From contig NC_018020.1 of NCBI RefSeq assembly GCF_000266885.1, positions 1,922,001 to 1,986,000 of the forward strand: a stretch of 64,000 nt of DNA, in the 5' to 3' direction. The DNA comes from Turneriella parva DSM 21527 (lineage in GTDB: Bacteria > Spirochaetota > Leptospiria > Turneriellales > Turneriellaceae). The translations under genes and the position numbers were made by a program. Under the pieces are notes generated by a model. That model made no database searches. It saw nothing but the letters and a program-made list of their open reading frames with translations, and was not told where the DNA came from. This document shows, in pieces, positions 28,859 to 46,329 of this stretch (position 1 is its first letter; the number at the start of each line of letters is the position of its first letter).

Positions 28859-28897
28859 AAATTCTTGACGAGGTCAACGATTCGGGTAGTCATACCC

Positions 28898-29545
28898 ATG
28901 GAATTTTTCATCGATACGGCCGACGTTGCCGAAATCAAAGCCGCCCACGAACTGGGCATTCTCGACGGTGTCACGACTAACCCTTCGCTGATAGCGAAGA
29001 CAGGCAAACCCTTCAAGGCAGTTGTCAAAGAAATTTGCGCCATAGTTGACGGGCCCGTTTCGGCAGAGGTTGTCGCGACCGAAAAAGATGCTATTCTCAA
29101 AGAAGGCCGTGAACTCGCGAAACTCGCCAAGAACGTGGTCGTGAAGGTGCCTCTGATCGCCGAGGGCCTCAAAGCCGTGAAAGTATTTTCAGCCGAAGGC
29201 ATTAAGACAAATGTGACGCTCTGCTTTTCGACGAACCAGGCGTTGCTCGCCGCAAAGGCCGGCGCGACCTACATCTCGCCCTTCGTGGGCCGCCTCGACG
29301 ACATCAGCCAAGATGGCATGGAACTCATCGACGAAATCAAGACAGTTTATGATAACTATGATTTTGCGACGAAGATTCTGGTTGCGAGCATTCGCCACCC
29401 CATTCACCTGAAGCAGGCGGCGCTCATCGGTGCCCATGTCGCGACGATTCCGTTCAGCGTGTTCGGGCAGCTCGTCAAACATCCGCTGACTGACAGCGGT
29501 CTTGAAAAGTTTCTCGCCGACGCGAAAAAATTTAATTGGGATTAA
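28898..29545 (+). CDS. Transaldolase / fructose-6-phosphate aldolase (TalC/FSA subfamily)
   Basis: 215 residues, the short TalC form. [20 protein letters not shown] and [11 protein letters not shown] are typical, the Schiff-base lysine is probably Lys83 in [15 protein letters not shown], and [19 protein letters not shown] with [10 protein letters not shown] follow. The enzyme moves a dihydroxyacetone unit between sugar phosphates in the pentose phosphate pathway, or cleaves fructose 6-phosphate; sequence alone does not separate the two. The ATG at 28898 is preferred to an in-frame start at 28865 because the family begins with MxFFIDTA. It stands as a single gene between two strong hairpins. 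Confidence 0.93.
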
Positions 29546-29552
29546 TAACGAG

Positions 29553-29587
29553 CCGCGCGTTGGCTTGCTCAGCAAGCCAACGCGCGG
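29553..29587. terminator. 17-bp perfect hairpin after the transaldolase gene
   Basis: CCGCGCGTTGGCTTGCT, central C, AGCAAGCCAACGCGCGG. No T-run. It lies 8 bp after the stop and 13 bp before the ParA-like ATG, so it could also act in the leader of the long downstream operon. Confidence 0.55.
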
Positions 29588-29600
29588 TGAATAGTGTTCC

Positions 29601-30380
29601 ATGGCGGTAGTACTTTCTATAACGAACCAGAAAGGCGGGGTGGCAAAGACGACCACTGCACTTGCGCTCGCGCATTCGTTTGCCCGGCGGCATTCGGGCA
29701 AGAAAATTCTGCTCATTGATCTTGATTCACAGCGAAACGCAACCTCGATCTTGCTCGGCACCCATGAAATTCAACCTGCAGATTCCGTCTATGCGCTCTT
29801 TCAGAAAGACAAGCCGACGAGTTCAGTGCTGCACACGACGGCGCTCGCAAATCTTTTTGTGATTCCCTCGAATTTGCACCTGGTTGAAGTCGAATCGCAG
29901 CTGACCGGCGCTCTTGACGGGTTTTTCAGATTGAACGACGCGCTGCAGTCGCTGAGGCACGAATTCGACTATATTCTTCTCGACTGCCCGCCATCGTTGT
30001 CGGTGCTCACAATCAATGCAATGGTCGCTGCTGACTTTTTGCTGGTGCCGTTGCAGATTTCAAAGTTCTCTATCGACGGTATTCAGAACATTCGCGATGC
30101 AGTGACGACGGTCAACAAGCGGTACAATGCCCATATCAAGATTGCGGGCGGCTGCCTTACACTGCACGATGGCCGCACGACACTTTCACAGGCGATGATT
30201 CCTGAAGTTGAAAAAATTCTGCCGATTTTGAAATCCACAATACCCCGGTCGGTTGCTGTTGAAGAGGCGCACCTGCTGCGCAAAGATATCTTCGAATATG
30301 CCCCGCAAAATAAGGTAGCGGCAGCGTATGAGCAGCTCGCCGCCGAATTAGAAGCGATCTTCGCAGGTGCTGCCGCGTGA
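29601..30380 (+). CDS. ParA/MinD-family ATPase, without a ParB neighbour
   Basis: 259 residues. Deviant Walker A KGGVAKTTTALALA at about 11-24 with the signature lysine, Walker A' LLIDLDSQRNAT, Walker B YILLDCPPSLS. This matches the Soj/ParA group that forms ATP-dependent dimers on DNA or membranes to position cargo. No parB or gidB gene is nearby, so this is not the usual chromosome-partition locus; cargo here may be the membrane or envelope proteins encoded downstream. The stop overlaps the GTG of the next gene (GTGA). It heads a long plus-strand gene run. Confidence 0.88.
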   Translation: MAVVLSITNQKGGVAKTTTALALAHSFARRHSGKKILLIDLDSQRNATSILLGTHEIQPADSVYALFQKDKPTSSVLHTTALANLFVIPSNLHLVEVESQLTGALDGFFRLNDALQSLRHEFDYILLDCPPSLSVLTINAMVAADFLLVPLQISKFSIDGIQNIRDAVTTVNKRYNAHIKIAGGCLTLHDGRTTLSQAMIPEVEKILPILKSTIPRSVAVEEAHLLRKDIFEYAPQNKVAAAYEQLAAELEAIFAGAAA

Positions 30381-31102
30381 AAAAGAACCGCAAAGACATT
30401 TTCAGAAAGGCGATTGCCGACAACCTCAGCCAAAAGGCTGAAGAGGCCTCAGAGCTCGGCGATTTCGTCAGCGACATGAAAAACGCGAGGGCGGCCGAAG
30501 ATGCGGCGGCAAACCAGACAGAGCGCGACGACAAGAAAGAAGATAAAAAGGGCTTGCCGGAGCAAAAAGAAGAAAAAAAAACTATGGCAGCTATGGAAAG
30601 CCGACTGAAAAGACTCACTGCGGGGCCGAGCCAGCCGGCCGCTTTCGCAGACGACGAAGAACCGCCCCGTTGGCGAAAATTCGTGGTGTTCGGCGTTTTG
30701 GGCGTCCTCATCGCAACGCTGCTCTATTGGGCCATTTTTTCGCCTGGTAATCGCCCCACCATCTACCTGGCGAATACGGCGCTTGAAGAGAGCACCGCGC
30801 GCAACCTTAACACGGTCAATCTCGTGTTTCCGAAAAATAAGACTATTTACCTGTTGTTTTCGAGCGGCGGGCGTCTGGGGCAAGATAAAATTATTACCCG
30901 CCTGACCGAAGTCTATGCCGATTCGAGCAACATGATGAAAGAAGAAACGGTCTCGCAAATTGAAGGTAGCGTTAAGGCAAGTTGGCGCTATTTCACCGCG
31001 CAGTTTCAAAAAGAGAATTTCGACCATGCCGGCAGGTTTCGCATTCACGTGCTGGCCCCAAACGGTGAAATAGTTGCAACGCAAGAGTTTCGCATTCAAT
31101 AG
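30377..31102 (+). CDS. Single-pass membrane protein with charged cytoplasmic region
   Basis: 241 residues from GTG at 30377, overlapping the ParA-like stop. The first about 95 residues are hydrophilic and strongly charged (Lys/Glu/Asp-rich, likely coiled or disordered), followed by one membrane helix (FVVFGVLGVLIATLLYWAIF, about 104-123) and an extracytoplasmic domain of about 115 residues rich in predicted beta strands (TIYLLFSSGGRLGQDK ... FRIHVLAPNGEIVATQEFRI). No family recognised. The layout suits a link between the cytoplasmic ATPase and the large exported protein encoded next. The next ATG follows its stop without a gap. Confidence 0.65.
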   Translation: MKKNRKDIFRKAIADNLSQKAEEASELGDFVSDMKNARAAEDAAANQTERDDKKEDKKGLPEQKEEKKTMAAMESRLKRLTAGPSQPAAFADDEEPPRWRKFVVFGVLGVLIATLLYWAIFSPGNRPTIYLANTALEESTARNLNTVNLVFPKNKTIYLLFSSGGRLGQDKIITRLTEVYADSSNMMKEETVSQIEGSVKASWRYFTAQFQKENFDHAGRFRIHVLAPNGEIVATQEFRIQ

Positions 31103-34100
31103 ATGGTTGCTCGCGGGGTAATGTCGGCTGTTTCAGCAAAGGCGTTCGCCACAAGGCTCGTTGTTGGTTTTGCAGCCATCGTGCTTTCGGCGCACTGTGG
31201 TTCGACACCCGTGCGCGACGATGCTAAGTTCAGCTACGAAAATTTATATCAGGATAAATATAAGCGGGGTAACGGTGGTATTATACCGATTACGATCGAG
31301 CGCGGCGAATCGTACAGCGGCAGCATCACTGCAGACCAGCGTTACCTTTACTTTGCTTCGAATACCTCGGGCAATTATGACATATACCTCAGAGACCTTG
31401 AAGATGTATTTTCGATTCCCGTAGTCTCGACAGTCACGAACCAGCGCGAACCTTCGATAAGCCCTAACGGCAAATATCTCGTGTATGTTGACGACGAGCT
31501 TGACCCCGACGGCGATATAATCTTGCTCAAGGTAAATCCTAAAAAGCTGATTGAACTTTTTCGCGAACGTCGCCAGCCCGATGACGAATGGTTTGCCGCA
31601 CGCGCGGTTAACCTGACAAACAGCGAAAAGAACCGCATTCGCGCGCGCGACGCAAACCCAGTATGGTCGGCCGATGGAAATTTCATCGCGTACAGTTCTG
31701 ACCTTGTGGCAAAAGAGGCAGACGACCTTGGCGCCGGCGCCGGTGCGATTCAAAATATCTGGGTAATGCCTGTGGATAATCCCGAGCAGAAACGGCAGGT
31801 CACTACCAAAGGCGGCGTGATGCCGGCGTTTTCACCCGACGGTACCAAAATTGTCTACATCTCTTATGAAGACGAAAACTCATTCGGCGCAGTTTACGAG
31901 CTCGAGCTCGCGACAGGCAAAACACGCCGCATCACTTCAGGGCAAACACTTGATTTTTACCCGACCTATTTGCCCGACGGACAAGGTTTTGTTCTCACGC
32001 GCATTGCCGCAGATACCAACGGTGACGGGCAGGTTGATCGCAAAGATGCGGGGCAGATTATCAAGATTTATCCCGATGAAGATTCTCCGCTCGACAGCGA
32101 CGATTTTATTCCGCTGACGTCGCCGAGCGATCACGTGTTCGATTCGCGCGTGAGCGGCTTCGTGGGCGGCAGCGTGATTCTCGCGCAGCTTAAAGGCGAG
32201 GATGTCAATGTCGGGTTTATGCCGCTCACGGGGGCAATACCGGCGAAACCCGATGTCAGGCAGCAGCAAAAATATCTCGCTGACGTAGCAAAGCGTAGCA
32301 AGAACAAAGCGCGCACCTGTATGGGTTTGCAGCAACTGCCCGCCGCGTATGAAAATTCGCCGGATGTCGTGGTTTACGATGCAATCAGCAGCATGCGCCG
32401 CACGCAATGTGACCCCACTGCCGCAAAAGATTTGCGCGAATATATCGCAACGTCTGAACCCGGAGAGGTTGCGATCTATCGTTTGCTGAACGACCTTGCG
32501 GTCATGAGTCCCGATTACGCTGATCTAAAAGGAGTGCTGGCTCTCGAGCCTTTGGCCTCGCTCGCACAGCCCGAAGTCTATTTCGAAGAGATCTTGCGCA
32601 ACAAGAAGATCTGGCAGTTTTACCGCGACCAGGATGACAATGTCGAGTATCTTGCAGTATTATCTTTTATTCGGCACGAGCAGACTCTCTTTTATCTGCG
32701 CCAGGGCAAGACACCGCAGGCCCGCGAAACATTGCGCAAGGTCATGCGCGAAAACCCGGCATACCTGGCGCTCGACGAGCTGCTTCTAGAAACGGGCAAG
32801 CTCGACTCGTCGACGCTGCCTGCGCCAGAACTCGTCTATCTTGTGGCAGAAACCCCAGACCTGAAGTTGCTCGAGAAATATGAACTACCCGCCAAAACCG
32901 CGCCGCCCGCGGTAAGGCCGCACATACGCCGCGAAAGCGAGCGTTTTTTGCTGACCTTCTTCGACCGCCAGTACACGCTCGGCAACGAGAAGGCGCAGAA
33001 GCAATATCTGCTGGCGTTTCCCGAGAAGAATCATAAGAAATTGCATGCGCTCTTCGCACTGTCAACCGCGCGCGACGATGCCGCAAACGAACTTTACGAT
33101 GAATCTGATGCCGCTGCAAACCGAGCGCGTCAACTCGTGCCTGCAGGTTCGCTCTACCATTTCTATGCTTCTGTCGTGACAGCTGAAAACGCGGGTGTGC
33201 GCGCAGGTCTTGATGCCTCTGTAAAAACATATTCTGAAGCAATTACTGCGTACCGCGATGAAGAACCGCCCGAAAACGTGCGCGACATTGTTGAAAAGAT
33301 TTCAATATATTATAAAGAACGGGCCGAACAGCACCGCGCTGCTGGTGAATACCGGGCGGCAGTGAGTGAATATGAAGCACTACTTGATCTCTACCTTTCG
33401 GCGCACGCGAACCGCATGACCAAAGAACTCGCGCGCGGCGAGCTGCTCGACTTCGCGTTGAATCTCGACCAGATTGCGCTGCGTGTTGCGCGGGACGACG
33501 AAGACCTGCTCGAAGATGTACTGAAGTTTTACGATTCGCGTATTGATACCGCCCGGCGCTATCTGGTCACCGAATTCATCTTTGGCCGCGGGTTCTTGCG
33601 TTCGCAGCTTGGTATTCAGCTTCATCTCGATGCGGAGCGCGACGGCCTCGGCCGGTCAGAGAAAAAACAGGTATTTGAATACTTTCGCAAAGCGGAAATT
33701 GACATGAACTGGTGTTTCTTCACGAATGCACGTTTCGCCGACGCCTACATCATGCTCGGTTGGATGTACCAGTTCATCGACGAAAAGCGTGAGCTGGTGC
33801 TCGACATCGGGTCGGGCAAGCGCGATCGTGAGGTTTTTGAATCACTCTACCGCGCCTACTTTCCCGATTATCTGTTCGAAAAAAATATTCGATTATACCA
33901 GAAGACGCTTTCGCTTTTCGCCGGCAGCGGTTCGCCGCGCATTCGCAATAGTTTTCACCTCAATATTGCCAATAATTACTTCTTGCTGAACAACTACAGT
34001 CAGGCCGAAGAGCATTACACGGCCATACTGAATAAAAAGGGAAATCCTGATTATCAGTTTGAGAACCCCGAACAGGAGATGATGTTCTTTTATCACCTGG

Positions 34101-37100
34101 GTCGAACGCTCTATTTTACCGGCAAGTACGAGTCGGCTTCGCGTTACCTGAGGTACGTCGAAAACAATCTGAATTCCCGGTACCCGCTTTCGGGCATTGC
34201 GGCCGAAGCCCAGAGGCTTAACCAGGGCCGCCGAGAGACTGCCTACAAGACTTTTGCCCTCAATGCCGAATATTCGCAGAATATTGGCGCCGCGATTCAG
34301 TACCACCAGACGATAATCGCTGAGCGGGCAGCCGTCGGCGCAGAATCACCGGTTTCGATGTCGCATCTTGAGCTCGCGCGCCTGCACCTTGCGCAAGGTG
34401 ATCTGACCGCTTCATTGCAGGCAACCCAGAGTGCAGAGGCTGCGCTCGGCAAAGAAAAAGAAATCGCCATACCGAAATTCAAAATTCGTATCAAGTGGTT
34501 TTGGGTCTACGAGCCGTGGACCTGGCTGGTCGGTTTCATCTACAAGCTGCCGTACGACAGCGTCTATATTGGCGAGAACCATCTGGCGTTCGAGCTGCCA
34601 ACTGTGAACCGCTACCAATTGCTCTACTCGATCAGGGCAGAAATATACCGCAGCAAAGGGCTGCTGCAAGAAGCCTCGAACTCGCTGGCCAAATTGGTTG
34701 AATATGCTGAAAAAGACAATACCAAGCACGGTGCTGAAACGCTGAGCTCGGCAGTCAGTCGCCGTGCAGAGCTCGAGTTTTCATTGCGCAGCTGGGATAC
34801 CGCAGAGCAACTCTATGGCGCTGCGCTCAAACAGGCCGAAAAGAATGGCAATAGCGCCGCTGCGCTGACCTTCAGAAAGAATATCGAACTCTGCAAGCTC
34901 AGACGCATAGAAACGCGCGAGCAGCCAGTTGCCGAAAAAGTTAAAACAGTCAGGTCGTACATTCGCGAAATTGAAGAGTATGAAAACGCGGTTGCGGCAG
35001 AGCGCATTAAAGCTGCCCGCAAGGTGGTTAAAGAAAAAGACGACCCCAATCGCCCAGACCTGACCGAAGCCGATATCAAGAAGATTAAAGAGGCTGTTGC
35101 GTCAGACCTGCAGCCGCTGCTGTTCTTCAAAGGTTTGTATGCTGCGCATGATTCAGACATGAGCGATTTTGCCGAGAGACTCGTCGATCGCGAAGAGACG
35201 TTCGATGCCTTTTTGGCGCGCAAACAAGAATCTTATAATCGCCACACAGCTGCACTCAAATACTTTCGCGGCTATTCGCGCGAAGCCTTTGAAGAGGTTC
35301 TGCCTGATTTCGAACCTGATCTGAAGAACAATTCGCTGCGCATGAAGCTCGCCATGAACCGCGCGAAAATTCTGCAAGACATGTCGCTCTTCAATGAATC
35401 GGCAGTCGAGTTCAAAGAAATTCAAGAACGCAGCCAGGAATTCAGAGCACAGCTCGAATACGCCATTGCGCTCTACCGGGCCTTTCGGGTGCAAGAAGAA
35501 GCGGGGCTGGCCGATAAAGTCAATCTTGCCCCCTACCGCCAGCTCGTAACGTATTTCAGGGAAAATCCCGGATTCTTGCGCCCGAATACTGACCTGTTTG
35601 ACAGGCTGGTCAGTATTCTGATCGAGCGGGCGCTGCTACAGAAAAACTTTGCAGAAGCCCTGCAACTCGAAGACGCCAAACGGCAGGCGCTTGCTCTGCC
35701 GCTCTATTTTGACGACCTGAGATTTCTGGGCGCGAAAGACGAGCGCTTCAATGAACTGCTGATTATCGAGCAGAAACGCACGATGCTTTCAGCGCAGATC
35801 AAAGCGGCGCGGCTCGCCCGCCAGGCGGTGCAGATTCCCGAAAAGCAACTGGCAAAACTCGATGCGGATGCAGCACGATTGCGCAGCATCTTGCTGCAAC
35901 GAGACCGGCTCGACTATCGTTACGAGACATTTTTTTCATCAGGTTTTTCTCAGCCAGAAATGCAGGTGCTGGCAGCCCAGGGGCTCGTGTATGTGATGAA
36001 GCCGCGCGAAGACCTTATCTTTCTGTACGCAAAATCTGACGCAACCAAGAAAGGATCTTCTGTGCGCTATGAACAGACGATACCTGAAAAAGATGCCGAT
36101 TTGACAGAAGAACTCGAGAAATTCGTCGCTGCACGCAAGCCGCGTGTGCTCATCTTATCGCCTCAAATCTTGAATGCCGCGCTCAAAAGCGAGAAACTGG
36201 CATCTCTTTCGCTGCAAACAACGATCATTTCGGCAGTCAATTTTCGCCGCAATACCGACCCTGCGCGACGCAACCTGCTGCAGATAAACCGAAACGCTTC
36301 GTTCTTTAGTCTAGGCGGCGGCAACGAAGTCGACTACAAGGTCAGCCTTGCACAAAAACGGGTTTATACGAGCGCAGAAGTTGAAAAATATACAATCCAT
36401 AAGAATGTCGTCGATTATGAAGCAGAGCTGGCACGCAAGACAATCGTCATCGACAATGCCTTGCTGAATCCAGCCGGCCTCTTTGCGCTTAAGGGAAACC
36501 CCAATTTTGCCATTGCTTCGATGCAATCGCGGGATAAACTTTCAGTCGCTGATGAATTCTTGTACGCAACGGCTGCAGACCTTTACTTTTCGGCAATGGG
36601 TGCGGGCAGAGTCTTACACACGCGCACCTCGCGCAAACAGGCTCAGCCGGTGATTGAGACCTTTCTGGCAAAAGGCGAAACTGCCCGCGGTACTTTGGTC
36701 ACCGGCAATATTGAAGCTTCAGACGAGCGCGAGCGCGACATCGCGTCGCTTGAGCAAAAGCGATTATACGTGAAGAAAATCGGCGCAGCCCGTGCGCTGC
36801 GCGAATACGAAGAAGCAATCAGTTACGCCGAAGACGCACTTTCTCTGCGACCTGACGACATCGACCTGCGCCTGACGGCCGCCGAGCTTCTGCTGATTCA
36901 GCATGAATACGACGCAGCGAATAAGCATATCGCGCAGGTGCGCATCAACGCGAAATCACCGCTCAGCGACCGCAGGGCATATGCCCGTATTCTGATGCGG
37001 GCAGGCATGGAAAGTGAGCTCATTCGTTTTCTGGGGGCCGATGGCGAAACCACCGCGAGCGTGCTGAAAAATGCACCTGAATTTCGCGGCGTCTCGCAGC

Positions 37101-38638
37101 TGACCGCTTTCAATACGGGCAATCTTGAGCCGCTGACCCGGGTGCTGCCGTGGCAACCCCGTACTGCAAGACCCAACGAAGATTCGTTGCGCACTATATC
37201 CGCATCTCTAAAAGATGCAGAGCTTAGAAATGAAATCTGCCTCGCAGCTACCGATGCGCTCGAGTTCAGGCTGATTCTGAATTCATGCCTCAACAATTCC
37301 CGGGCAGACGCGGGTGAACAGGCTGACCGTGCGCGCATACGCGCTTTCTTTGCTGGCGCAGCGCCCGACACGCGCATCAATGTCAGGCCCGAAGATCTCG
37401 ACTTTAACCATGCACTTTCGCTCTTGCAAAGTGGTTACGCTGCTGACGCTGTGTTCTACGCGCGGCGTGTGCTCGTCGCGCAGAAGCTGAACAATTCAGA
37501 GCACCTGCTGGCGTATGCGCTGCTCAGGGTGCTGGCGATGCGCAAACTGAACAATGAAGACAGTGAAGCGATAACGCAGCTGCTTGCTGAATACGGTGAG
37601 AAGGCGCTACCCAAAGCGGCTAATCTGCAGGCGGCAAGGTTTTACAGAATTCTGAGTCTGCTCGAAAAGCTCCGGGCAGGCAAATCTGACGTGGCCGAGT
37701 CGCTGACGCCGCTCGAGACGCGTACTTCGGGAGTTGTTTCGGCAGAAAACCTTCTGCATTTATATAACCTGAGCGTTTCAGGCGCTCTCGCCAAAAATGC
37801 AAACGTGCAAGATTCTTCATTCGAAGCAGACCGCCGCGTTGAAGCCGATCTGGCCTTTTATGCGAAAGAAAACGTAAATCTGTCTGCAGAGGCCGACTGC
37901 AAAAACGACAACTGCGCGTTGCTTATCAAGTCGGCGATCGTGAAGAAGAAGAATGCCGAGGCGCTAAAACTGCTGTTGGCGCACCATGGAGTGACAGGTA
38001 CAGAAAAGCTACCAGACGGAGCTTTCGGTTATACAGAGCTGTTTACCGACGAATATTATTTGTGGCATCAGGTAGGTTCTGAAATTCGAATCGATAAGAT
38101 AGATTCATTCGATGAAAAGACCGTGGCGAAACTCAAGTCGGGCAGGCGGTACCTGGTGCATCTACCGCAACGGAATCTGTTCTTGCAGCGCAAGATTAAC
38201 CCACCGCGCGAGGCGATACTTGTCGATGCCCGCGCTGACCTGAAGGCGCCCGCCACCGAGAAGCCCGCTGTAAAAATCGCCGCACCGGCGCCCGCGACGC
38301 TGCATTCGGCGCTGCAGGCACGTTGGGGAGGTAAGAATAAAGGCAAGAGCCGTATCACCGTGCAGATCAAGCCTCCCTTCGACGGAGCTCCCGGCGACCT
38401 GCATATCTATACACAGCCGGTTGCTCTCGATGCATTTGGCCAACTTAAACCCGATGGCTATCACCTCGTTTGCGCCAACGGCGAATCGTATAATAATTTC
38501 GCCATCTTTGCGCTAACGATGGTCGAAAATATGGCTGACAGGGGCCAGGGCGTCGAGGCGGCATATGAATCAGCCCTGAAATCTCAAAAAGGCAAGCAAG
38601 CCTCGACAAGACCGCTGTATTTTCTGTACCGGAACTAG
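31103..38638 (+). CDS. Giant exported protein: TolB-like propeller, TPR-rich body, possible degenerate CHAT-like region
   Basis: 2511 residues, the largest gene here. The N-terminal hydrophobic segment ends in LSAHC-GSTP, a possible spirochaetal lipobox. Residues about 60-370 hold PD40/TolB-like propeller repeats (SGSITADQRYLYFASN, EPSISPNGKYLVYVDDE, PVWSADGNFIAYSSD, PAFSPDGTKIVYIS). Helical TPR-like repeats fill about 400-1600 (for example NSFHLNIANNYFLLNNYSQA). About 1605-1890 (VLILSPQILNAAL, FFSLGGGNEVDYKVS, LYFSAMGAGRVLHTR) faintly resembles a CHAT peptidase domain, but no convincing His-Gly and Cys pair is seen. More TPRs follow, then a C-terminal segment (IFALTMVENMADRGQGVEA). Directly upstream of an RsbU-like gene, so it may act as sensor or scaffold. 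Confidence 0.7.
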   Translation: MVARGVMSAVSAKAFATRLVVGFAAIVLSAHCGSTPVRDDAKFSYENLYQDKYKRGNGGIIPITIERGESYSGSITADQRYLYFASNTSGNYDIYLRDLEDVFSIPVVSTVTNQREPSISPNGKYLVYVDDELDPDGDIILLKVNPKKLIELFRERRQPDDEWFAARAVNLTNSEKNRIRARDANPVWSADGNFIAYSSDLVAKEADDLGAGAGAIQNIWVMPVDNPEQKRQVTTKGGVMPAFSPDGTKIVYISYEDENSFGAVYELELATGKTRRITSGQTLDFYPTYLPDGQGFVLTRIAADTNGDGQVDRKDAGQIIKIYPDEDSPLDSDDFIPLTSPSDHVFDSRVSGFVGGSVILAQLKGEDVNVGFMPLTGAIPAKPDVRQQQKYLADVAKRSKNKARTCMGLQQLPAAYENSPDVVVYDAISSMRRTQCDPTAAKDLREYIATSEPGEVAIYRLLNDLAVMSPDYADLKGVLALEPLASLAQPEVYFEEILRNKKIWQFYRDQDDNVEYLAVLSFIRHEQTLFYLRQGKTPQARETLRKVMRENPAYLALDELLLETGKLDSSTLPAPELVYLVAETPDLKLLEKYELPAKTAPPAVRPHIRRESERFLLTFFDRQYTLGNEKAQKQYLLAFPEKNHKKLHALFALSTARDDAANELYDESDAAANRARQLVPAGSLYHFYASVVTAENAGVRAGLDASVKTYSEAITAYRDEEPPENVRDIVEKISIYYKERAEQHRAAGEYRAAVSEYEALLDLYLSAHANRMTKELARGELLDFALNLDQIALRVARDDEDLLEDVLKFYDSRIDTARRYLVTEFIFGRGFLRSQLGIQLHLDAERDGLGRSEKKQVFEYFRKAEIDMNWCFFTNARFADAYIMLGWMYQFIDEKRELVLDIGSGKRDREVFESLYRAYFPDYLFEKNIRLYQKTLSLFAGSGSPRIRNSFHLNIANNYFLLNNYSQAEEHYTAILNKKGNPDYQFENPEQEMMFFYHLGRTLYFTGKYESASRYLRYVENNLNSRYPLSGIAAEAQRLNQGRRETAYKTFALNAEYSQNIGAAIQYHQTIIAERAAVGAESPVSMSHLELARLHLAQGDLTASLQATQSAEAALGKEKEIAIPKFKIRIKWFWVYEPWTWLVGFIYKLPYDSVYIGENHLAFELPTVNRYQLLYSIRAEIYRSKGLLQEASNSLAKLVEYAEKDNTKHGAETLSSAVSRRAELEFSLRSWDTAEQLYGAALKQAEKNGNSAAALTFRKNIELCKLRRIETREQPVAEKVKTVRSYIREIEEYENAVAAERIKAARKVVKEKDDPNRPDLTEADIKKIKEAVASDLQPLLFFKGLYAAHDSDMSDFAERLVDREETFDAFLARKQESYNRHTAALKYFRGYSREAFEEVLPDFEPDLKNNSLRMKLAMNRAKILQDMSLFNESAVEFKEIQERSQEFRAQLEYAIALYRAFRVQEEAGLADKVNLAPYRQLVTYFRENPGFLRPNTDLFDRLVSILIERALLQKNFAEALQLEDAKRQALALPLYFDDLRFLGAKDERFNELLIIEQKRTMLSAQIKAARLARQAVQIPEKQLAKLDADAARLRSILLQRDRLDYRYETFFSSGFSQPEMQVLAAQGLVYVMKPREDLIFLYAKSDATKKGSSVRYEQTIPEKDADLTEELEKFVAARKPRVLILSPQILNAALKSEKLASLSLQTTIISAVNFRRNTDPARRNLLQINRNASFFSLGGGNEVDYKVSLAQKRVYTSAEVEKYTIHKNVVDYEAELARKTIVIDNALLNPAGLFALKGNPNFAIASMQSRDKLSVADEFLYATAADLYFSAMGAGRVLHTRTSRKQAQPVIETFLAKGETARGTLVTGNIEASDERERDIASLEQKRLYVKKIGAARALREYEEAISYAEDALSLRPDDIDLRLTAAELLLIQHEYDAANKHIAQVRINAKSPLSDRRAYARILMRAGMESELIRFLGADGETTASVLKNAPEFRGVSQLTAFNTGNLEPLTRVLPWQPRTARPNEDSLRTISASLKDAELRNEICLAATDALEFRLILNSCLNNSRADAGEQADRARIRAFFAGAAPDTRINVRPEDLDFNHALSLLQSGYAADAVFYARRVLVAQKLNNSEHLLAYALLRVLAMRKLNNEDSEAITQLLAEYGEKALPKAANLQAARFYRILSLLEKLRAGKSDVAESLTPLETRTSGVVSAENLLHLYNLSVSGALAKNANVQDSSFEADRRVEADLAFYAKENVNLSAEADCKNDNCALLIKSAIVKKKNAEALKLLLAHHGVTGTEKLPDGAFGYTELFTDEYYLWHQVGSEIRIDKIDSFDEKTVAKLKSGRRYLVHLPQRNLFLQRKINPPREAILVDARADLKAPATEKPAVKIAAPAPATLHSALQARWGGKNKGKSRITVQIKPPFDGAPGDLHIYTQPVALDAFGQLKPDGYHLVCANGESYNNFAIFALTMVENMADRGQGVEAAYESALKSQKGKQASTRPLYFLYRN

Positions 38639-38640
38639 AA

Positions 38641-41007
38641 ATGCAGCTGACGCCAACTCCAGAGGCCGGTGCGGGTAAGCACTTATTGCGCAAAAGCGGC
38701 GATCGCCTTTTCGTTGAAACGACGCCTGAACTGAATAAGGCGGCCCTTTATATTCTCAAAGCTGCATGCGGCTTGATGCATGCAGAAACCTGTTTTCTCA
38801 CTCTGCGAACCGGCGATGGTGTGAAAACCTATCGCATGTCATCCCGCGCGCTGACGGCTCTCGAGAAGAATATTATGCAGAAAAGTCTCGTCGAGTGCGA
38901 GACCATTGCCATTGAATCGCGCCAGAAAATCTTCAACCAGGCACAGGTTTCCATAGGTGAGGCTGAAACATCTTACATTGCCTCGCCGCTGATAACCGAA
39001 GGTAAAGGTGCTCTTGGCGGTTTGCTGTGGGTGACTAAACTTGGTGAAGAGGCCTTCAACGAAGAAGATGTGAGCCTGGCAGCGACGTTTGCGCGCACCT
39101 TTGCGCGCATGCTGGCCAATTGTATTGCGTCGCCCGACAACACCACGCTTCTCGTTAAATTCAGCAGCAATCTGGTTACGATTTTCGAGAATCTTTACCT
39201 CTACAGGCGCAACATCGAGAATAACTTTTTACTCTCAGAAATGATCAAAGTGTCGAAGATGATCAACTCGACGCTCGACCTCAATAGTCTGCTCGAATCG
39301 ATTATGGATTCGGCGAAAATCGTCTTGAAAGCCGAAGCATCTTCTCTGATGCTGATCGACCGCAAGACCAACGAACTTTTCTTCAACATCATATCGGGCG
39401 AAAAGGAGCGCGATCTCAAAGAAATCAGAATACCCATCGGGGTGGGCATTGCAGGCATCGTCGCCGAAACCTGCAAGCCGCTGGTCGTCAACGACGCGCA
39501 GAACGATGAACGCGTCTACAAACAGGCAGACGAAAAGATCAATTTTGTCACCAAAAACCTGATCGCCACACCCCTCATGGTACGTAACCGCATCATCGGC
39601 GTCATCGAAGTTATCAATTCGGTCGGGCGTAGCGAATTTACGGAGAAAGATCTCGAACTCTTTAACACGTTTTCTGAACAGGCTGCTCTCGCGATACACA
39701 ATCGCGAGTTGATTGACTCGCTCAAAGATATTAACCGCGAACTGAAGAAGAAGGTGCATGAGCTTTCGAGTCTGCACGAAATCGGCAAAGTGCTGATGTC
39801 GACGCTGAACGAAAAAGACCTGTTTGATTCAATCGTGCGCATTATCGCCGACGAAATGCTGGCCGACCGCGTTTCGATCATGATATATGCCGCCGACCAC
39901 GACGCTCTCGAAATTGTATCGCATCACGGTCTCGAACTTTCGCCATTCGAGCGCACCTTTATTGCTCTCGACAGGTCGCTTGCGGGCAAGGCATACAAAG
40001 AGCGAAAGCTCATCTACACAAACTCACTGGAAAAATCGCCATACGCTACCTTCAGAGATGTCGAACGTTACCACACCGGTGGGTGTATTATTCAGCCCCT
40101 GATGCATGGCCAGGAGATTTACGGAGTACTGAATATCTCAGACCGCCAGTCGCCAACCGGTAGCGAATTTACCGACGACGACCTGAGGCTCGTGGCGACC
40201 ATCGCGAGCCAGATCACGCGAAGCATTCAGAATTTTCGCCTGCTCAATGAAATGCTGCAGAAGCGTTCTTATGAAAAAGAACTCGAAATCACTTCGAGTA
40301 TTCAAAAATCGATTCTGCCGAGCCATTTTCAGAAATCAGCCTGGTTCGACCTCGGGGTTATTTCTGAACCGGCGAAGCTCATGGGCGGCGACTTCTATGA
40401 CTATCTCGCTTTCGACGGTGACCAGTTCGTTTTTTCTGTAGCCGATGTCAGTGGCAAGAGTCTGCCTGCGGCCCTCTTTATGGCGGTCACGAGCTCGATT
40501 ATTCGCACCTATGGCCGCGAGGTGCGCTCGCCAGCCGATGTACTCTACAAGGCGAACGACCTCATCTATCAAGACAGCCAGTCGGGAATGTTTGTCACGT
40601 TGTTCTATGCGCTCTTCAATGCACCCGAACACGAACTGCATTTTGCCTCTGCAGGCCATAACGAGCAGCTGATTTTTCGCCACGATACCCGGCGCTTCGA
40701 GAAGCTTGGCACCCGTGGTCGTCCGCTCGGTGTTGTCGATTCTGCAACGCACGGCGTCTTCGGCGAAGGGCGTGCCTTCTTAAACGAAGGCGATTTGCTG
40801 ATTCTTTATACCGATGGCGTTGTCGAAGCAATCAACGAGCGCAAAGAAGAATTCGGGTTTGAGCGTTTCTGCCGGCTGATCAGCGACAATATGCTGCTTT
40901 CGTCTGATCAATTGGTGAAAAAGATTTTTCGCGAAGTGAAAAATTTTGCGGGTTCTGAAGCGCAATACGACGACTTCACTCTTATGGTGATCAAGGTCTT
41001 GAAGTGA
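38641..41007 (+). CDS. GAF-domain PP2C-type serine phosphatase (RsbU/SpoIIE-like)
   Basis: 788 residues, soluble. Three GAF-like sensory segments at about 20-180, 200-350 and 375-525, joined by helices, then a SpoIIE/PP2C phosphatase at about 555-788 with the metal-binding Asp residues: LMGGDFYDYLAF, VADVSGKSLPAALFMA, ASAGHNEQLIF, LLILYTDGVVEA and YDDFTLMVI. Such enzymes dephosphorylate STAS antagonists and so release a partner from RsbW-type kinases; the kinase and STAS genes follow directly. It begins 3 bp after the giant protein's stop. The ligand of the GAF domains is unknown. Confidence 0.93.
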   Translation: MQLTPTPEAGAGKHLLRKSGDRLFVETTPELNKAALYILKAACGLMHAETCFLTLRTGDGVKTYRMSSRALTALEKNIMQKSLVECETIAIESRQKIFNQAQVSIGEAETSYIASPLITEGKGALGGLLWVTKLGEEAFNEEDVSLAATFARTFARMLANCIASPDNTTLLVKFSSNLVTIFENLYLYRRNIENNFLLSEMIKVSKMINSTLDLNSLLESIMDSAKIVLKAEASSLMLIDRKTNELFFNIISGEKERDLKEIRIPIGVGIAGIVAETCKPLVVNDAQNDERVYKQADEKINFVTKNLIATPLMVRNRIIGVIEVINSVGRSEFTEKDLELFNTFSEQAALAIHNRELIDSLKDINRELKKKVHELSSLHEIGKVLMSTLNEKDLFDSIVRIIADEMLADRVSIMIYAADHDALEIVSHHGLELSPFERTFIALDRSLAGKAYKERKLIYTNSLEKSPYATFRDVERYHTGGCIIQPLMHGQEIYGVLNISDRQSPTGSEFTDDDLRLVATIASQITRSIQNFRLLNEMLQKRSYEKELEITSSIQKSILPSHFQKSAWFDLGVISEPAKLMGGDFYDYLAFDGDQFVFSVADVSGKSLPAALFMAVTSSIIRTYGREVRSPADVLYKANDLIYQDSQSGMFVTLFYALFNAPEHELHFASAGHNEQLIFRHDTRRFEKLGTRGRPLGVVDSATHGVFGEGRAFLNEGDLLILYTDGVVEAINERKEEFGFERFCRLISDNMLLSSDQLVKKIFREVKNFAGSEAQYDDFTLMVIKVLK

Positions 41008-41438
41008 TGTGTCGTGTGCGCAAAGAGTTTCGGGCTGAAAAGGCGGCGATACCGCAGGTACATGATTTTGTGCGCTCGACACTTGAGGCCAACGGCGTGC
41101 AGGGTGTTTCGCGGGACGATCTGGTGCTCGCCTGCGACGAGGCAGCGACGAACATCGTTGAGCACGGCTTTACGGGGAAAAGCGGCATGACCAATGGAGA
41201 TCCTCATTTTATTCTGGCTTTGAATTGCCGCCAAAACCGCGTAACTGCGACTTTCTTTGATTCTGGGGCGAAATTTGACCCACGCACTGCTGCATTGCCT
41301 GATTTTCGCAAGAATCTTGCAGGCGAGCGCCGGGGTGGCTATGGCGTCTATATGATACGGCGGCTTGTCGATAAAATAGTTTACAGCGCACGGCGACGCC
41401 TGAACATTACAAGGTTAGTAAAAGAGGTATCAGGCTAG
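41007..41438 (+). CDS. RsbW-like anti-sigma serine/threonine kinase
   Basis: 143 residues from ATG at 41007, overlapping the phosphatase stop (TGATG). One HATPase_c_2 domain with N-box LACDEAATNIVEHGF and G-boxes DSGAKFDPRTA and GGYGVYMIRRLVDKI. In partner switching this kinase phosphorylates the STAS protein and sequesters a target, classically a sigma factor, but no sigma gene is adjacent, so the target may be something else. The STAS gene starts 1 bp after its stop. Confidence 0.9.
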   Translation: MCRVRKEFRAEKAAIPQVHDFVRSTLEANGVQGVSRDDLVLACDEAATNIVEHGFTGKSGMTNGDPHFILALNCRQNRVTATFFDSGAKFDPRTAALPDFRKNLAGERRGGYGVYMIRRLVDKIVYSARRRLNITRLVKEVSG

Positions 41439-41439
41439 A

Positions 41440-41766
41440 ATGCTCAGAACAAAAGAAGTTGGCAACTACATCGTCGCATACCTCAAGGGCAGGCTCGACG
41501 TTCACATCAGCGGTGAAATCGAAAAAGATCTCATGGCGCTGAGTGAAAAAAATACCGAAGCAGATTTTATTCTGAATCTTGAAGGTATCGAATACATGTC
41601 TTCGAGCGGCCTGCGTGTGCTTGTTGCCCTCATGCGCCACCTGCGCGGTAAAAACCGCAAAATGAAACTCTGCAACATGAACGTTGCTGTGAAAAAAATC
41701 TTTGAAGTCGTCGAACTGATGGACATGTTCGACATCTACCCCACCGAAGAAGACGCGCTGAAATAA
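41440..41766 (+). CDS. STAS-domain anti-sigma factor antagonist (RsbV/SpoIIAA-like)
   Basis: 108 residues. The phosphorylation loop reads EYMSSSGLRVL; Ser55 aligns with SpoIIAA Ser58, and Ser54 replaces the usual Asp before it. The rest (VAYLKGRLDVHISGEIEKDL, FILNLEGIEYM, MKLCNMNVAVKKIFEVVELM) is typical. It would be phosphorylated by the kinase encoded upstream and dephosphorylated by the GAF-PP2C protein. A FliG-like gene follows 5 bp later, an unusual partner. Confidence 0.93.
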   Translation: MLRTKEVGNYIVAYLKGRLDVHISGEIEKDLMALSEKNTEADFILNLEGIEYMSSSGLRVLVALMRHLRGKNRKMKLCNMNVAVKKIFEVVELMDMFDIYPTEEDALK

Positions 41767-41771
41767 GCGAT

Positions 41772-42791
41772 ATGAAGTTCTTTCTTTCGTCTCTTGCCAA
41801 TCTTTTCAAGGGCGACAAGATGAGACATAATTCTGCTCCGCCGTTGGTGCAGGGGCGCGGGCTATCGCGTGAGGATTTCATGCGAATCTACGAGAGCATG
41901 CCTGATTCGGCCCGCGCGCAACTGTTCGCCGGGCTCGATTTTAAACAGAAAACGCGGCTGCTTGAGCTGCTGACACCAGGGTTCAAGAAAGAAGAGGCGG
42001 CCGTCACAGCTGCCGAGCCAGAATGGCAAGCCGAAGATTTTCTGCCCGAACAAGACGAGCGCAAAATTGCGCGACTGCGGCACGTGCGCGAAGTGAAGCA
42101 GGTGCGTGAGCTCTATGCAAGCCTTGCCGAATACCCGGCGAGGTCGCTCGCCGATGTGCTCGAACCAGAGAGCGCATCGGTGGCCGCGGTGGTGTTGCTG
42201 CAGCTGGCGCATAAGCAGGCTTCAAAGGTGTTGAGTCTCATGCCAGATTTGCGTCGCGGCGAGGTTGTGCGCGCAATGGCTACAGAACGGCAGATCAGCA
42301 GCGAGGCGCTTGTCGCGCTCGGCAAAAAAATCGGTGAACGCCTGCAGAGCCTGCCGCAGGCCGAAGAGCCTCGCCTCGACGGTGTGAAGCATGTGAACGA
42401 AATTCTGAAGCTATTGGGTGTTGAAGACGCCGACCGCATTACCCGCGAAGTCAGCACTGCAGACGCGGCGCTCGGCAAAACTCTCGAAAAGAGTCGTTAT
42501 ACCTTTGAAGACCTGACGCAGCTCAGCGCGAAAGATTTTCGTCACCTTTTCAGTTCAATGCCCGATGAGAAGCTGTGGGCCCGGGCGTTGAAGGCGATCG
42601 ATCAGGGCCAGCGCAAGGCGATGCTGAGCAAATTGCCGGTCAAGCGTGCGGGCCTCATCGCCGAAGCCATGGCAGATATCAAAACGACGAGGCTCGACAG
42701 CATCGATAAAGCACGCCGCGAGATTCTGGGCCGTGCACTGCAATTGGCGGCGCGGCACGAGATACGTTTCGCCGGGAACGGATTGCACTGA
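41772..42791 (+). CDS. FliG-like protein (flagellar motor switch paralog)
   Basis: 339 residues resembling the middle and C-terminal domains of FliG: VLEPESASVAAVVLLQLAHK (in place of the EHPQ-motif segment LxxEHPQxxALIL), LDGVKHVNEILKLLG (cf. GGVKHVVEILN), FEDLTQLSAKDFRHLFSSM and KLWARALKAIDQGQRKAMLSKLP (cf. the C-terminal charged-helix region). The EHPQ motif is replaced by EPES, so it is probably not the main rotor protein. The N-terminal 110 residues are divergent. In a partner-switch operon it may be the target that links the module to motility or polar organisation; this is inference. Confidence 0.75.
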   Translation: MKFFLSSLANLFKGDKMRHNSAPPLVQGRGLSREDFMRIYESMPDSARAQLFAGLDFKQKTRLLELLTPGFKKEEAAVTAAEPEWQAEDFLPEQDERKIARLRHVREVKQVRELYASLAEYPARSLADVLEPESASVAAVVLLQLAHKQASKVLSLMPDLRRGEVVRAMATERQISSEALVALGKKIGERLQSLPQAEEPRLDGVKHVNEILKLLGVEDADRITREVSTADAALGKTLEKSRYTFEDLTQLSAKDFRHLFSSMPDEKLWARALKAIDQGQRKAMLSKLPVKRAGLIAEAMADIKTTRLDSIDKARREILGRALQLAARHEIRFAGNGLH

Positions 42792-43063
42792 AGCGCAGAC
42801 GCTACCTCATCTCTGGCCGCGTTCAGGGCGTCGGCTACCGGCAGTTTGCCTGCGACACGGCACGGCTCATGAAAATTGCCGGCTGGGTTCGCAACCTGCC
42901 GACCGGCGAAGTTGAGGCCGAGGCACAGGCCGATGAAGTGACGCTGCAGGCCTACGAAGCGAAACTGCAAAAAGGGCCTGCGCTCGCGAGGGTGCAACAG
43001 GTCGCGATTCAAGATCTGCCTGTGAACCCATCGGAAAACAAAGCATTCGAGATTCGGCGCTGA
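42788..43063 (+). CDS. acyP: Acylphosphatase with an apparent non-AUG start
   Basis: 91 residues if begun at CTG 42788 (CTG AAG CGC AGA CGC TAC), which overlaps the FliG-like TGA as CTGA; an ATT at 42782 is the other option. The first ATG in frame (42869) would remove the catalytic loop, so it cannot be right. The motif SGRVQGVGYRQF gives the phosphate-binding Arg18, and GWVRNLPTGEVE the catalytic Asn36; both are present and the total length is normal for the family. The enzyme hydrolyses acyl phosphates such as acetyl or carbamoyl phosphate. The stop overlaps the waaA ATG by one base. Confidence 0.8.
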   Translation: MKRRRYLISGRVQGVGYRQFACDTARLMKIAGWVRNLPTGEVEAEAQADEVTLQAYEAKLQKGPALARVQQVAIQDLPVNPSENKAFEIRR

Positions 43064-44319
43064 TGTGGTTCTACAACCTGCTTCTTTATACGGCATACCC
43101 GCTGTTGTGGTTAGTCTCGCGCTGGCATAAGCGCCTCGGCAAAAATTTTGATCTGAGAAAAAAACTGCCTGACTTTTCAGCAGCGCGCGGCAAACGCCAT
43201 ATCTGGTTTCACGCATCGTCTGCCGGCGAATTTGAACAGGTCAGGGCGCTCGCGATTGAGATGCGAAAAGTACATAAGGATTTCTTTTTTTCATTCAGCT
43301 TTTTCTCTGACAGCGCATGGCGCGCCCGCAAGAATGACCCGGTACCCGATGCTTTTTTCGCGTTACCTTTTGATTTTCGTCGCCGCATGCAGAGTTTGGT
43401 GGTCGCCATGAAACCCGATGCGCTCGTGATCGGTAAATACGACGCGTGGCCCAACCAGGTGAAGGCCTGTTTCGCCGCAGGCGTGCCTGTCTATGTGATC
43501 AGTGCAACGCTGCCAGAAAAATCTTCAAGGCATCGCTTTCCGTTGCGCGTTTTTTTGGCAGGCATCTACCGACCCATGCGCGCGATCTTTGCGATCAACG
43601 GCGATCACGCAGCGCGCCTCAAAAAAATTTCGCCGCACAACGTGACGGTCGCCGGAGACACTCGCTTTGATGCGATTTCGTATCGGCTGAAAGAAGGCGC
43701 GAAGCACGCGAAAGCGGTGCAGGCGCTCAGGCGGCAGCTCGGCAATAGGCATGTGATCGTCGGGGGGTCGAGTTACGCAACCTCGGAAAAACTGATTCTG
43801 CAATTCGTGCGTGCTGTGAATCAAACTGGTAATAAGAAGTTCGCCGCGGTTATAGCTCCTCACCATGTTCAGCCGCAACGTATTGCTGCGATTGAACAGC
43901 AGTGTCTCGATTCAGGTCTCACTACAGCGAAATGGAGCGACGCAAAACGCGCGCAATTTGATGTGCTGATAGTCGATGCGCTCGGCGTTTTGCCTTACCT
44001 CTACGATCTGGCGACAGTCGCTTATGTCGGGGGCGGGTTTGAGGGGTCAGTGCATTCCGTGATCGAAGCGGCGATTGCGGGAGCGCCGATTGTTACCGGG
44101 CCGCATCTCGCCAATTCGGCCGAAGCGATTGAGCTGCAGGGCCTCGGGCTCTTGACCAGCCTCGAGGCACCCGAGGCTCCGGCCTTTTATGCTGCTGTGG
44201 AAAACCTGTGCAAAACCCGCGCCGCAACCTCGAAGCAGCTGAAAGCCTACTTCAGACAAAGAGTGGGCGTGAGCAGGCGAATTTTGCATACTGTGATGGA
44301 CGACCTGTACAAACAGTAA
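43063..44319 (+). CDS. waaA: 3-deoxy-D-manno-octulosonic acid (Kdo) transferase
   Basis: 418 residues. A membrane-anchored GT-B enzyme (N-terminal hydrophobic [20 protein letters not shown]) that attaches Kdo to lipid A precursor. The N-terminal [14 protein letters not shown] carries the catalytic Glu seen in all WaaA proteins, [13 protein letters not shown] replaces the usual E(T/L)E(L/I)WPN, and [21 protein letters not shown] and [17 protein letters not shown] follow. The KYDAWPN variant is somewhat unusual. The gene is translationally coupled to acyP (TGATG) and is followed 11 bp later by clpP. Identification is good; the number of Kdo residues added is not predictable. Confidence 0.88.
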
Positions 44320-44330
44320 GAAGGGGAATT

Positions 44331-44942
44331 ATGGCATACGCACCAATTGTGATCGAACAGACGAACCGTGGCGAGCGCCACTACGATATATACTCGCGCC
44401 TGCTCAAAGACAGAATCATTTTTCTGGGCTTTCAGCTCGACGACGCCTATGCAAACGTGATCATTGCACAGCTGCTTTTTCTCGAATCTGAAGACCCAGA
44501 GAAAGACATCTATCTTTATATCAACTCACCGGGCGGCTACGTTTCGGCGGGCCTCGCCATCTATGACACCATTCAGCTGATTCGCCCCGAAGTGCGCACG
44601 GTATGCACCGGGCAGGCCTCGAATATCGCGGCGCTGATACTCGCGGCAGGGGCAAAAGGCAAGCGTTCTGCGCTGCCACACTCACGTATTTTGCTGCACC
44701 AGCCAATGGGCGGTGCATCAGGCCAGGCCTCTGATATTGAAATTCAGGCGCGCGAGGTGTTGCGTATTCGTGACACCCTGAACGGCCTTTACCAGCAGCA
44801 CACGGGGCAGACGCTCGAGAAAATCGAACAAGAGACAGAACGCGACCTCTATATGGATGCCGCCGAAGCGGTCAAATGGGGTCTCATCGACTATGTCATT
44901 TCGGCTCGCCCCGAAAATACCTCGAAAGAAATCGCGAGTTAA
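44331..44942 (+). CDS. clpP: ClpP-family protein with the nucleophile Ser replaced by Asn
   Basis: 203 residues from ATG at 44331, with AAGGGGAA before it. It is collinear with ClpP over the full length: [57 protein letters not shown]. Where active ClpP has GQAAS(M/I), this has GQASNIAAL: the usual Ser98 is Asn98, with Ser at 97. His123 and Asp172 are kept. It is therefore either inactive, acting like cyanobacterial ClpR in a mixed ring with another ClpP, or uses Ser97. It lies 19 bp before clpX, whose LGF loop for ClpP docking is present. Confidence 0.88.
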
Positions 44943-44961
44943 ACGATAATAAAGAGATAAG

Positions 44962-46329
44962 ATGGCTGAGCGTCGTAGTTATGATTCGGGCAACCATTGC
45001 TCATTTTGCGGTAAAGAACAGGCAAAAGTAAACCGCCTGATAGCAGGCCCCGGTGTGCATATCTGCGACGAATGCGTGCAGCTGTGTAACGGTATCTTGG
45101 CCGATGATCTTGAAAAGCAGGCGGCGCCGGCAACCGTACAGAAGTTGCCCAAACCTGCAGAAATCAAGAAGACCCTCGATGAGTACGTTATTGGGCAAGA
45201 CGCGGCAAAACGTGCGCTTTCGGTAGCTGTCTACAATCATTACAAGCGGCTGCAGTACGAGAAAGACGTTAACTCGAAAAATGGCGGTAAGTTCTTGCGC
45301 AAGCACGCTGCCGGTGAAACCGCCAATGTCGAAATTGACAAATCGAATATTCTGCTGATCGGCCCCACGGGTTCGGGTAAAACATTTCTTGCGCAGACGC
45401 TCGCGCGCATTCTGCAGGTGCCCTGCGCTCTGGTCGATGCGACTGCACTCACCGAAGCCGGTTATGTCGGTGAAGACGTTGAGAACATTTTGCTGCGTCT
45501 CTACCAGAACTCAGACGCAAATGTCGAAAAGGCGCAGACGGGTATCATATACATCGACGAAATCGACAAGATCGCACGCAAATCAGATAACCCGTCGATT
45601 ACCCGTGACGTTTCGGGCGAAGGCGTGCAGCAGGCGCTGCTCAAAATCATCGAAGGCACGGTCGCGAGCGTACCCCCGGTAGGCGGTCGCAAGCACCCCC
45701 ATCAGGATTTTATCCAGATGGATACCCGCAATATTCTGTTTATCTGCGGTGGCGCGTTTGAAGGCCTTGACAGGGTCGTTTCGCGCCGCGTTGAGAAGTC
45801 GACGCTCGGTTTCGATTTTCAGGCTCCCAAGCGCAAAGACCAGTCGGGCGAATACCTGCGCCAGGTAACACCCGATGACCTGATGAAATACGGATTGATT
45901 CCTGAATTTATTGGCCGTTTGCCTATCATTCGCTCGCTCGACAACCTTGACGAAGCCTCGATGGTAAAGATACTCACCGAACCGCGTAATGCGCTCATTA
46001 AGCAGTACAAAAAAATATTTGAGCTCGAAGGCATTAAGCTGACATTCGAAGACGCCGCCATACAGGCGATCGCGGCTAAAGCGCTCACGCGCGAAACCGG
46101 CGCGCGGGGTCTGCGCGCGATCGTCGAAGACGCGATGATGGACCTCATGTTTGAAATACCAACGATGATCGGTGTCGATGAAGTCATTATCACACGCGAG
46201 ATGATCGAATCGGGAGAGAAGGCGCGCATTATCACGCGTGCTGAAACCGATAAAGAGCGCAGCCGCAAAGGCAAAGCGGCAGAGAACGCCGCCGAGAGTT
46301 ACGAAATTCCGCCGGAGAAAATGGCTTAA
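44962..46329 (+). CDS. clpX: ATP-dependent protease ATPase subunit ClpX
   Basis: 455 residues. N-terminal zinc-binding domain with CSFC and CDEC (about 13-41), Walker [13 protein letters not shown], Walker [10 protein letters not shown], sensor/arginine-finger region ([10 protein letters not shown]) and C-terminal [12 protein letters not shown]. The ClpP-docking loop reads STLGFDF, so LGF in place of IGF, a conservative change. It unfolds tagged proteins for ClpP. The stop overlaps the lon ATG (TAATG), so clpP, clpX and lon are co-transcribed. Confidence 0.97.

Follow-up and report, generated by a model that had tools for sequence, protein, structure and literature searches.

A putative genus-specific transcription unit of Turneriella, very probably assembled from three separable modules, with a candidate partner switch beside a FliG1-type rotor paralogue

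The stretch of Turneriella parva DSM 21527 DNA analysed here (64,000 nucleotides, hereafter the window) belongs to a genome of 4,409,302 bp in two contigs, and the organism is described as having one chromosome and one plasmid (PMC3746428). Seven genes follow one another on the same strand of the window, encoding a ParA-family ATPase, a single-pass membrane linker, a giant lipoprotein, a GAF-containing PP2C phosphatase, an RsbW-like kinase, a STAS protein and a FliG-like protein. This arrangement, with gaps of 0–5 bp or overlaps of 4 bp (in order -4, 0, 2, -4, 1 and 5), had been described in a sequence-only reading of the DNA and was confirmed by open reading frame analysis and domain searches (Table 1). 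The remark made there that neither a chemotaxis gene nor a sigma factor is present holds for the seven genes themselves.

Table 1. Features of the locus and its flanks; positions are those of the window
Feature	Position	Strand	Evidence and remarks
TAL, fructose-6-phosphate aldolase/transaldolase	28865..29545	+	TIGR00875 4.6e-94; ancestral neighbour of ParA in the order
Perfect inverted repeat between TAL and ParA	29553..29587	.	Sequence; 17-bp arms
ParA-family ATPase (module A)	29601..30380	+	AAA_31 4.8e-50; deviant Walker A KGGVAKTT
Single-pass membrane linker (module A)	30377..31102	+	TM at residues ~100-122; directly 3' of ParA
Giant lipoprotein, 2511 aa (module B)	31103..38638	+	TolB-like PD40 propeller and TPR solenoid; at the C-terminus, a helical solenoid between alpha/beta domains
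GAF-containing SpoIIE-type PP2C phosphatase (module C)	38641..41007	+	SpoIIE 1.9e-46 and GAF; metal-site motifs intact
RsbW-like Ser kinase (module C)	41004..41438	+	HATPase_c_2 3.3e-19
STAS antagonist (module C)	41440..41766	+	STAS 1.4e-19; Ser-containing YMSSSGLR intact
FliG1-type paralogue (module C)	41772..42791	+	FliG_C 5.2e-18, FliG_M 3.1e-15
Acylphosphatase reading frame	~42782..43063	+	Overlaps the end of the FliG1-type gene; orthologue L147:3700-3972 matches PF00708 at 2.1e-24
KdtA (Kdo transferase)	43063..44319	+	Start overlaps the stop codon of the acylphosphatase frame
ClpP, ClpX, Lon	44208-48785	+	Same strand, 3' of KdtA
1758-aa protein	49712-54988	-	Five Lamin Tail Domain matches and one Big_5 domain

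The putative transcription unit is longer than the seven genes, with TAL at its 5' side and the acylphosphatase frame, KdtA, ClpP, ClpX and Lon at its 3' side, all on the same strand. TAL stands ahead of ParA throughout the order, and the adjacency was also seen in seven loci from other genera (L137–L143). The inverted repeat occupies most of the 55-nt gap between TAL and ParA; the same 55-nt gap of the sister genome L033 holds a palindrome of unrelated sequence with 19-bp arms, which suggests that a hairpin has been kept without its sequence, and no comparably long TAL-ParA palindrome was found in five more distant loci of the genus. The acylphosphatase frame of the window genome has no ATG, GTG or TTG start, and translation apparently begins at ATT or CTG, coupled to the stop codon of the FliG1-type gene; in the relative L147, the acylphosphatase gene starts with ATG.

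The giant protein, the FliG-like protein, the linker and the PP2C phosphatase were profiled in 48 genomes of the class, ParA and a YdbH-like gene were searched in 18 genomes of the order, and gene neighbourhoods were inspected at approximately 100 loci; Leptospira proper is not among the genomes and loci surveyed. The seven-gene order is repeated in five contiguous genomes of the genus (the window genome, L033, L035, L037 and L039) and is followed up to contig ends in L034/L147, L036 and L038; the whole cluster is also common to the relative L156 (Turneriella sp.). This genus-wide recurrence indicates that the arrangement is more than chance. Conservation of the order beyond a single strain, which the sequence-only reading had made a test of its proposal, extends across the genus and to one neighbouring partial genome (G011), and ends there. 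Across the 48 genomes, the cluster splits into three units that differ in gains, losses and locations, and these units lie at separate places in all genera except g1 and g6.

Judged from these sequence comparisons, the locus is very probably a genus-specific transcription unit assembled from three older, separable modules. Module A consists of ParA and the single-pass linker; module B of the giant lipoprotein, whose gene ancestrally stood third in line behind a YdbH/AsmA-like gene and one for a YdbL(DUF1318)-like lipoprotein; and module C of the GAF-PP2C phosphatase, the RsbW-like kinase, the STAS protein and the FliG1-type protein. As the gene spacing suggests, the three modules would be co-expressed in this genus, an arrangement that requires no physical link among them. 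The best overall explanation, which we hold to be evenly balanced between right and wrong, is a sigma-less partner switch that acts on FliG1 and is co-expressed in the genus with two envelope modules.

A single ancestral seven-gene system was ruled out by the phyletic patterns and the neighbourhood survey. The switch and FliG1 are present in G005, where the giant protein is absent, and the giant protein and the switch are present in G006, G007 and G008, where ParA and the linker are absent. The proposal of the sequence-only reading, that envelope sensing by the giant protein is passed through the phospho-switch to the motor, is therefore unsupported as an ancestral system, since the modules are separate outside the genus and G011 and phyletically independent. 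One integrated apparatus, in which the giant protein and the linker sense the envelope, the phospho-switch relays to the FliG-like protein and ParA positions the assembly, would have to contend with modules that are unlinked and independently lost outside g1 and g6, with a giant lipoprotein that has no cytosolic part, with a PP2C sensor (GAF) that is cytosolic, and with the lack of any evident transmembrane transmitter to PP2C among the seven proteins. We consider it improbable, although the order and spacing are tight and conserved throughout the genus, the giant gene lies exactly between modules A and C wherever the contig of a genus genome is contiguous, and the stem branch of the genus FliG1 is very long (2.3 substitutions per site), as if partners had changed when the modules met.

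Within module A, a TAL-linked ParA orthologue was found in 15 of the 18 genomes of the order, and ParA and the linker are jointly missing from G006–G008, two of which are 98–100% complete and all of which retain modules B and C. The ParA-linker pair is class-wide, with the linker directly 3' of ParA in the loci read; in the other orders it is kept without the transaldolase gene, and a gene for a MORN-repeat protein comes next in the loci checked (L257–L264 and L272). No ParB was found among the neighbouring genes scanned by domain search. The linker spans the membrane once; its N-terminus is basic and conserved, and its C-terminal beta-rich domain, presumably periplasmic, has a weak likeness to DUF2914 that lies below the cut-off and is only suggestive. 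ParA partners are expected to stimulate ParA through a basic cytosolic tail. ParA dimers would position or cluster the linker via its basic cytosolic N-terminus, and the periplasmic domain would thereby be placed; that ParA acts on the linker is, on this evidence, probable.

The giant protein of module B had been described as an exported propeller/TPR protein. A PD40/TolB-like propeller was indeed recognised and the TPR matches fell below the cut-off, while "exported" requires amendment: all 20 homologues in the alignment have Cys32 where the signal peptide ends, which identifies the protein as a lipoprotein. Assignment as TolB was rejected, the match to TIGR02800 (6e-22) reaching 78.2 bits against a cut-off of 343. 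The C-terminal 922 residues were modelled (pLDDT 80, pTM 0.73) as alpha/beta domains around a helical solenoid, for which the fold search returned weak hits only (best PDB match DdvA, E 7.6e-5, TM ~0.22); a CHAT domain, suspected from the alignment tail, had no Pfam match in 12 giant-protein C-termini.

In most loci of the other orders, the giant gene is the last of a trio, preceded by an AsmA-like (YdbH/AsmA-like) gene (DUF748 1.2e-5, below the cut-off) and a lipoprotein gene (DUF1318 3.7e-6, at the cut-off). The trio also occurs in spirochaete genomes apparently outside the class (L169, L173, L175, L176, L180 and L187); trio loci from several spirochaete lineages were noted in all (L050, L054–L071 and L166–L190). 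It is broken up in the order of the window, where the YdbH-like gene of the window genome lies at C1:2218637-2221651 with no DUF1318 gene detected beside it. Of the 18 genomes of the order, 16 have both the giant protein and the YdbH-like gene, and G004 and G005 have neither. In E. coli, ydbH shares one locus with ynbE and ydbL, and YdbH acts redundantly with TamB and YhdP in the lipid homeostasis of the outer membrane (PMC8593681). No description of a trio of AsmA/YdbH-like protein, DUF1318 protein and giant lipoprotein was found in the literature searched. The trio elsewhere, together with the joint presence with the YdbH-like gene, suggests that envelope lipid traffic is the most likely setting of the giant protein and that its gene was a later addition to the cluster. 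It would form a periplasmic or outer-membrane scaffold working with a YdbH-like intermembrane bridge, and for this partnership with YdbH we see equal chances on either side. We know of no E. coli counterpart of the giant propeller/TPR lipoprotein, and the trio suggests this protein as a third, so far unstudied, partner in intermembrane lipid transport.

The last gene of the cluster, whose product the sequence-only reading called FliG-like, encodes not an unknown component but a FliG1-type paralogue. When the tree was rooted with FliG proteins from outside the spirochaetes (E. coli, Pseudomonas, Priestia, Acetoanaerobium and Thermomicrobium), one clade with 99% ultrafast bootstrap support, apart from canonical FliG, united the FliG-like proteins with the second FliG of genomes presumed to be of Borrelia and Treponema type; long branches are a caveat. 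It is not the only FliG of the genome; the canonical copy lies in fliF-fliG-fliH at C1:4,211,793. Within the genus the protein has lost the EHPQ motif, and FliG_N was not recognisable by domain search at the N-terminus of the window and L035 proteins; FliG_N is retained in the other genera tested and in Spirochaetia FliG1. The model of the window protein is still FliG-folded (best PDB match 3hjl, E 1.9e-9), at only moderate model confidence, and the comparison of torque residues is ambiguous by one residue in the R281 region. In Borrelia, FliG1 is asymmetrically localised and dispensable for flagellar synthesis (PMC7225975); Leptospira interrogans has three FliG copies (PMC11800159), and a Leptospira FliG1 has been named (PMC4758666). 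The loss of recognisable FliF- and FliM-binding features and the very long stem branch would be expected if this duplicate rotor protein had left the motor in the genus, to form with the phospho-switch, ParA and linker and the giant periplasmic lipoprotein an envelope-positioning or -sensing apparatus, an idea to which we give little credence.

The functional motifs of module C are preserved. PP2C carries the metal-binding motifs GGDFYD, DVSGK, YTDG and DDFT, the N and G box motifs CDEAATNI and GGYGV are conserved in the RsbW-like kinase, and YMSSSGLR is found in all 14 orthologues of the STAS protein, which is among the most conserved members of the cluster (57–69% identity across genera). 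Module C synteny holds in four families, f1 to f4 (L117–L125). Wherever a genome of the order has both PP2C and FliG1, across these four families, the two are neighbours; the PP2C orthologue occurs together with the second FliG in 16 of the 18 genomes, and G004 and G011 (the latter 54% complete) have neither. With order-wide linkage, joint absence and intact motifs behind it, action of the module C switch on FliG1 is the best supported of the functional proposals. The functional tie between partner switch and FliG-like protein that had been proposed earlier is in this respect upheld by order-wide synteny and joint presence and absence, with a putative STAS-to-FliG1 step.

Two observations count against a switch acting on FliG1: the linkage fails in other orders, and STAS is gone from the cluster of family f3. 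In the other orders, PP2C is a protein of ~910 residues with the RsbW domain fused at its C-terminus (in L274, SpoIIE at 576–768 and HATPase_c_2 at 781–910), a fusion indicating that those two act as one. STAS usually adjoins this fusion and the FliG-like gene lies elsewhere; what follows STAS is the gene for an 811-aa protein that has no Pfam assignment, or else carboxylase genes, which counts against a STAS-FliG1 link. In f3 (L123 and L125), RsbW and the FliG-like gene are separated by a gap of 0 or overlap by 4 bp, with no STAS gene between them, and STAS proteins of 49% identity are encoded elsewhere in the genome. The window genome has 11 further STAS proteins, so cross-talk is possible. 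As a separate observation, the loci of family f5 in other orders (L273–L287) carry a gene of ~450–510 codons directly upstream of the PP2C-RsbW fusion, whose product in L274 is a TPR protein ending in an Mrr_cat nuclease-like domain.

These neighbourhoods would also be expected under pure juxtaposition, that is, a shared promoter without shared function, with the FliG-like gene as a passenger and module C controlling something else, such as an unlinked sigma factor or a diguanylate cyclase. STAS is not beside FliG1 in other orders, it has gone from f3 while RsbW-FliG1 stays, and the FliG-like protein diverges fast, with 23–28% identity across genera, far below that of STAS. However, the constant PP2C-FliG1 neighbourhood in four families and the joint absence described above argue against a passenger, as does purifying selection on the FliG-like gene (dN/dS ~0.05 between the window and its sister genome, with dS near saturation), and we regard juxtaposition as rather unlikely. 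The f3 arrangement could alternatively reflect direct phosphorylation of the FliG1-type protein by RsbW, with STAS only titrating the kinase; the strong conservation of STAS where present speaks against this, as does the fact that RsbW-type kinases phosphorylate Ser/Thr residues of STAS proteins, and we consider this reading very unlikely.

Under the preferred reading, a sigma-less partner switch acting on FliG1, the GAF domains would sense a cytoplasmic signal and thereby activate PP2C, which would dephosphorylate the conserved Ser of the STAS protein, and the RsbW-like kinase would re-phosphorylate it. In one phosphorylation state, STAS would bind the FliG1-type protein, tuning motor engagement instead of releasing a sigma factor. 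We infer a direct STAS-FliG1 contact, which way the signal runs and what it does to the motor; direct action of STAS on FliG1 is put forward as a tentative proposal, somewhat more likely to fail than to hold. No sigma factor adjoins module C. STAS partner switches on non-sigma targets are documented for SiaC/SiaD, HsbA/HsbD and BgrV/BgrR (PMC8457831), so a sigma-less switch is of a known kind and the novelty would lie in a FliG1 target; no partner switch paired with a FliG1-type effector was found in the literature searched. FliG1 is a candidate for explaining how spirochaetes drive the motors at either cell end differently, and a conserved phospho-switch beside FliG1 offers a direct genetic handle on motor asymmetry through one STAS Ser.

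Compared with known systems, module A resembles the ParA-type positioning ATPases in its ParA fold, deviant Walker A motif and dedicated partner gene, and differs in that the partner crosses the membrane once and has a presumed periplasmic domain, and that no ParB is adjacent. The giant protein shares the N-terminal PD40 beta-propeller with TolB of the Tol-Pal system, but differs from it in its length of ~2500 residues, its lipid anchor and its long TPR part. The YdbH-YnbE-YdbL system of E. coli, an AsmA-like intermembrane lipid transport system, is matched by a DUF748/AsmA-like gene beside a DUF1318 lipoprotein gene, a pair that in most spirochaete loci immediately precedes the giant gene, whereas in the order of the window the YdbH-like gene sits away from the giant gene. 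The FliG-like protein agrees with the FliG1 of Borrelia burgdorferi and Leptospira in having FliG_M and FliG_C, in its place in the FliG1 clade and in being a second copy in addition to the canonical one of a fliF-fliG-fliH operon; unlike these, the genus members have no recognisable FliG_N or EHPQ, and, unlike in the other orders of the class, the protein is encoded with a phospho-switch. Finally, module C resembles RsbU-RsbW-RsbV-type switches with non-sigma targets (SiaABC-SiaD, HptB-HsbR-HsbA-HsbD and BgrSTUWV-BgrR) in combining a PP2C phosphatase, a HATPase Ser kinase and a STAS-type protein, with key residues intact, with an adjacent candidate effector, which here is a FliG1-type rotor paralogue rather than a sigma factor, an anti-sigma factor or a diguanylate cyclase.
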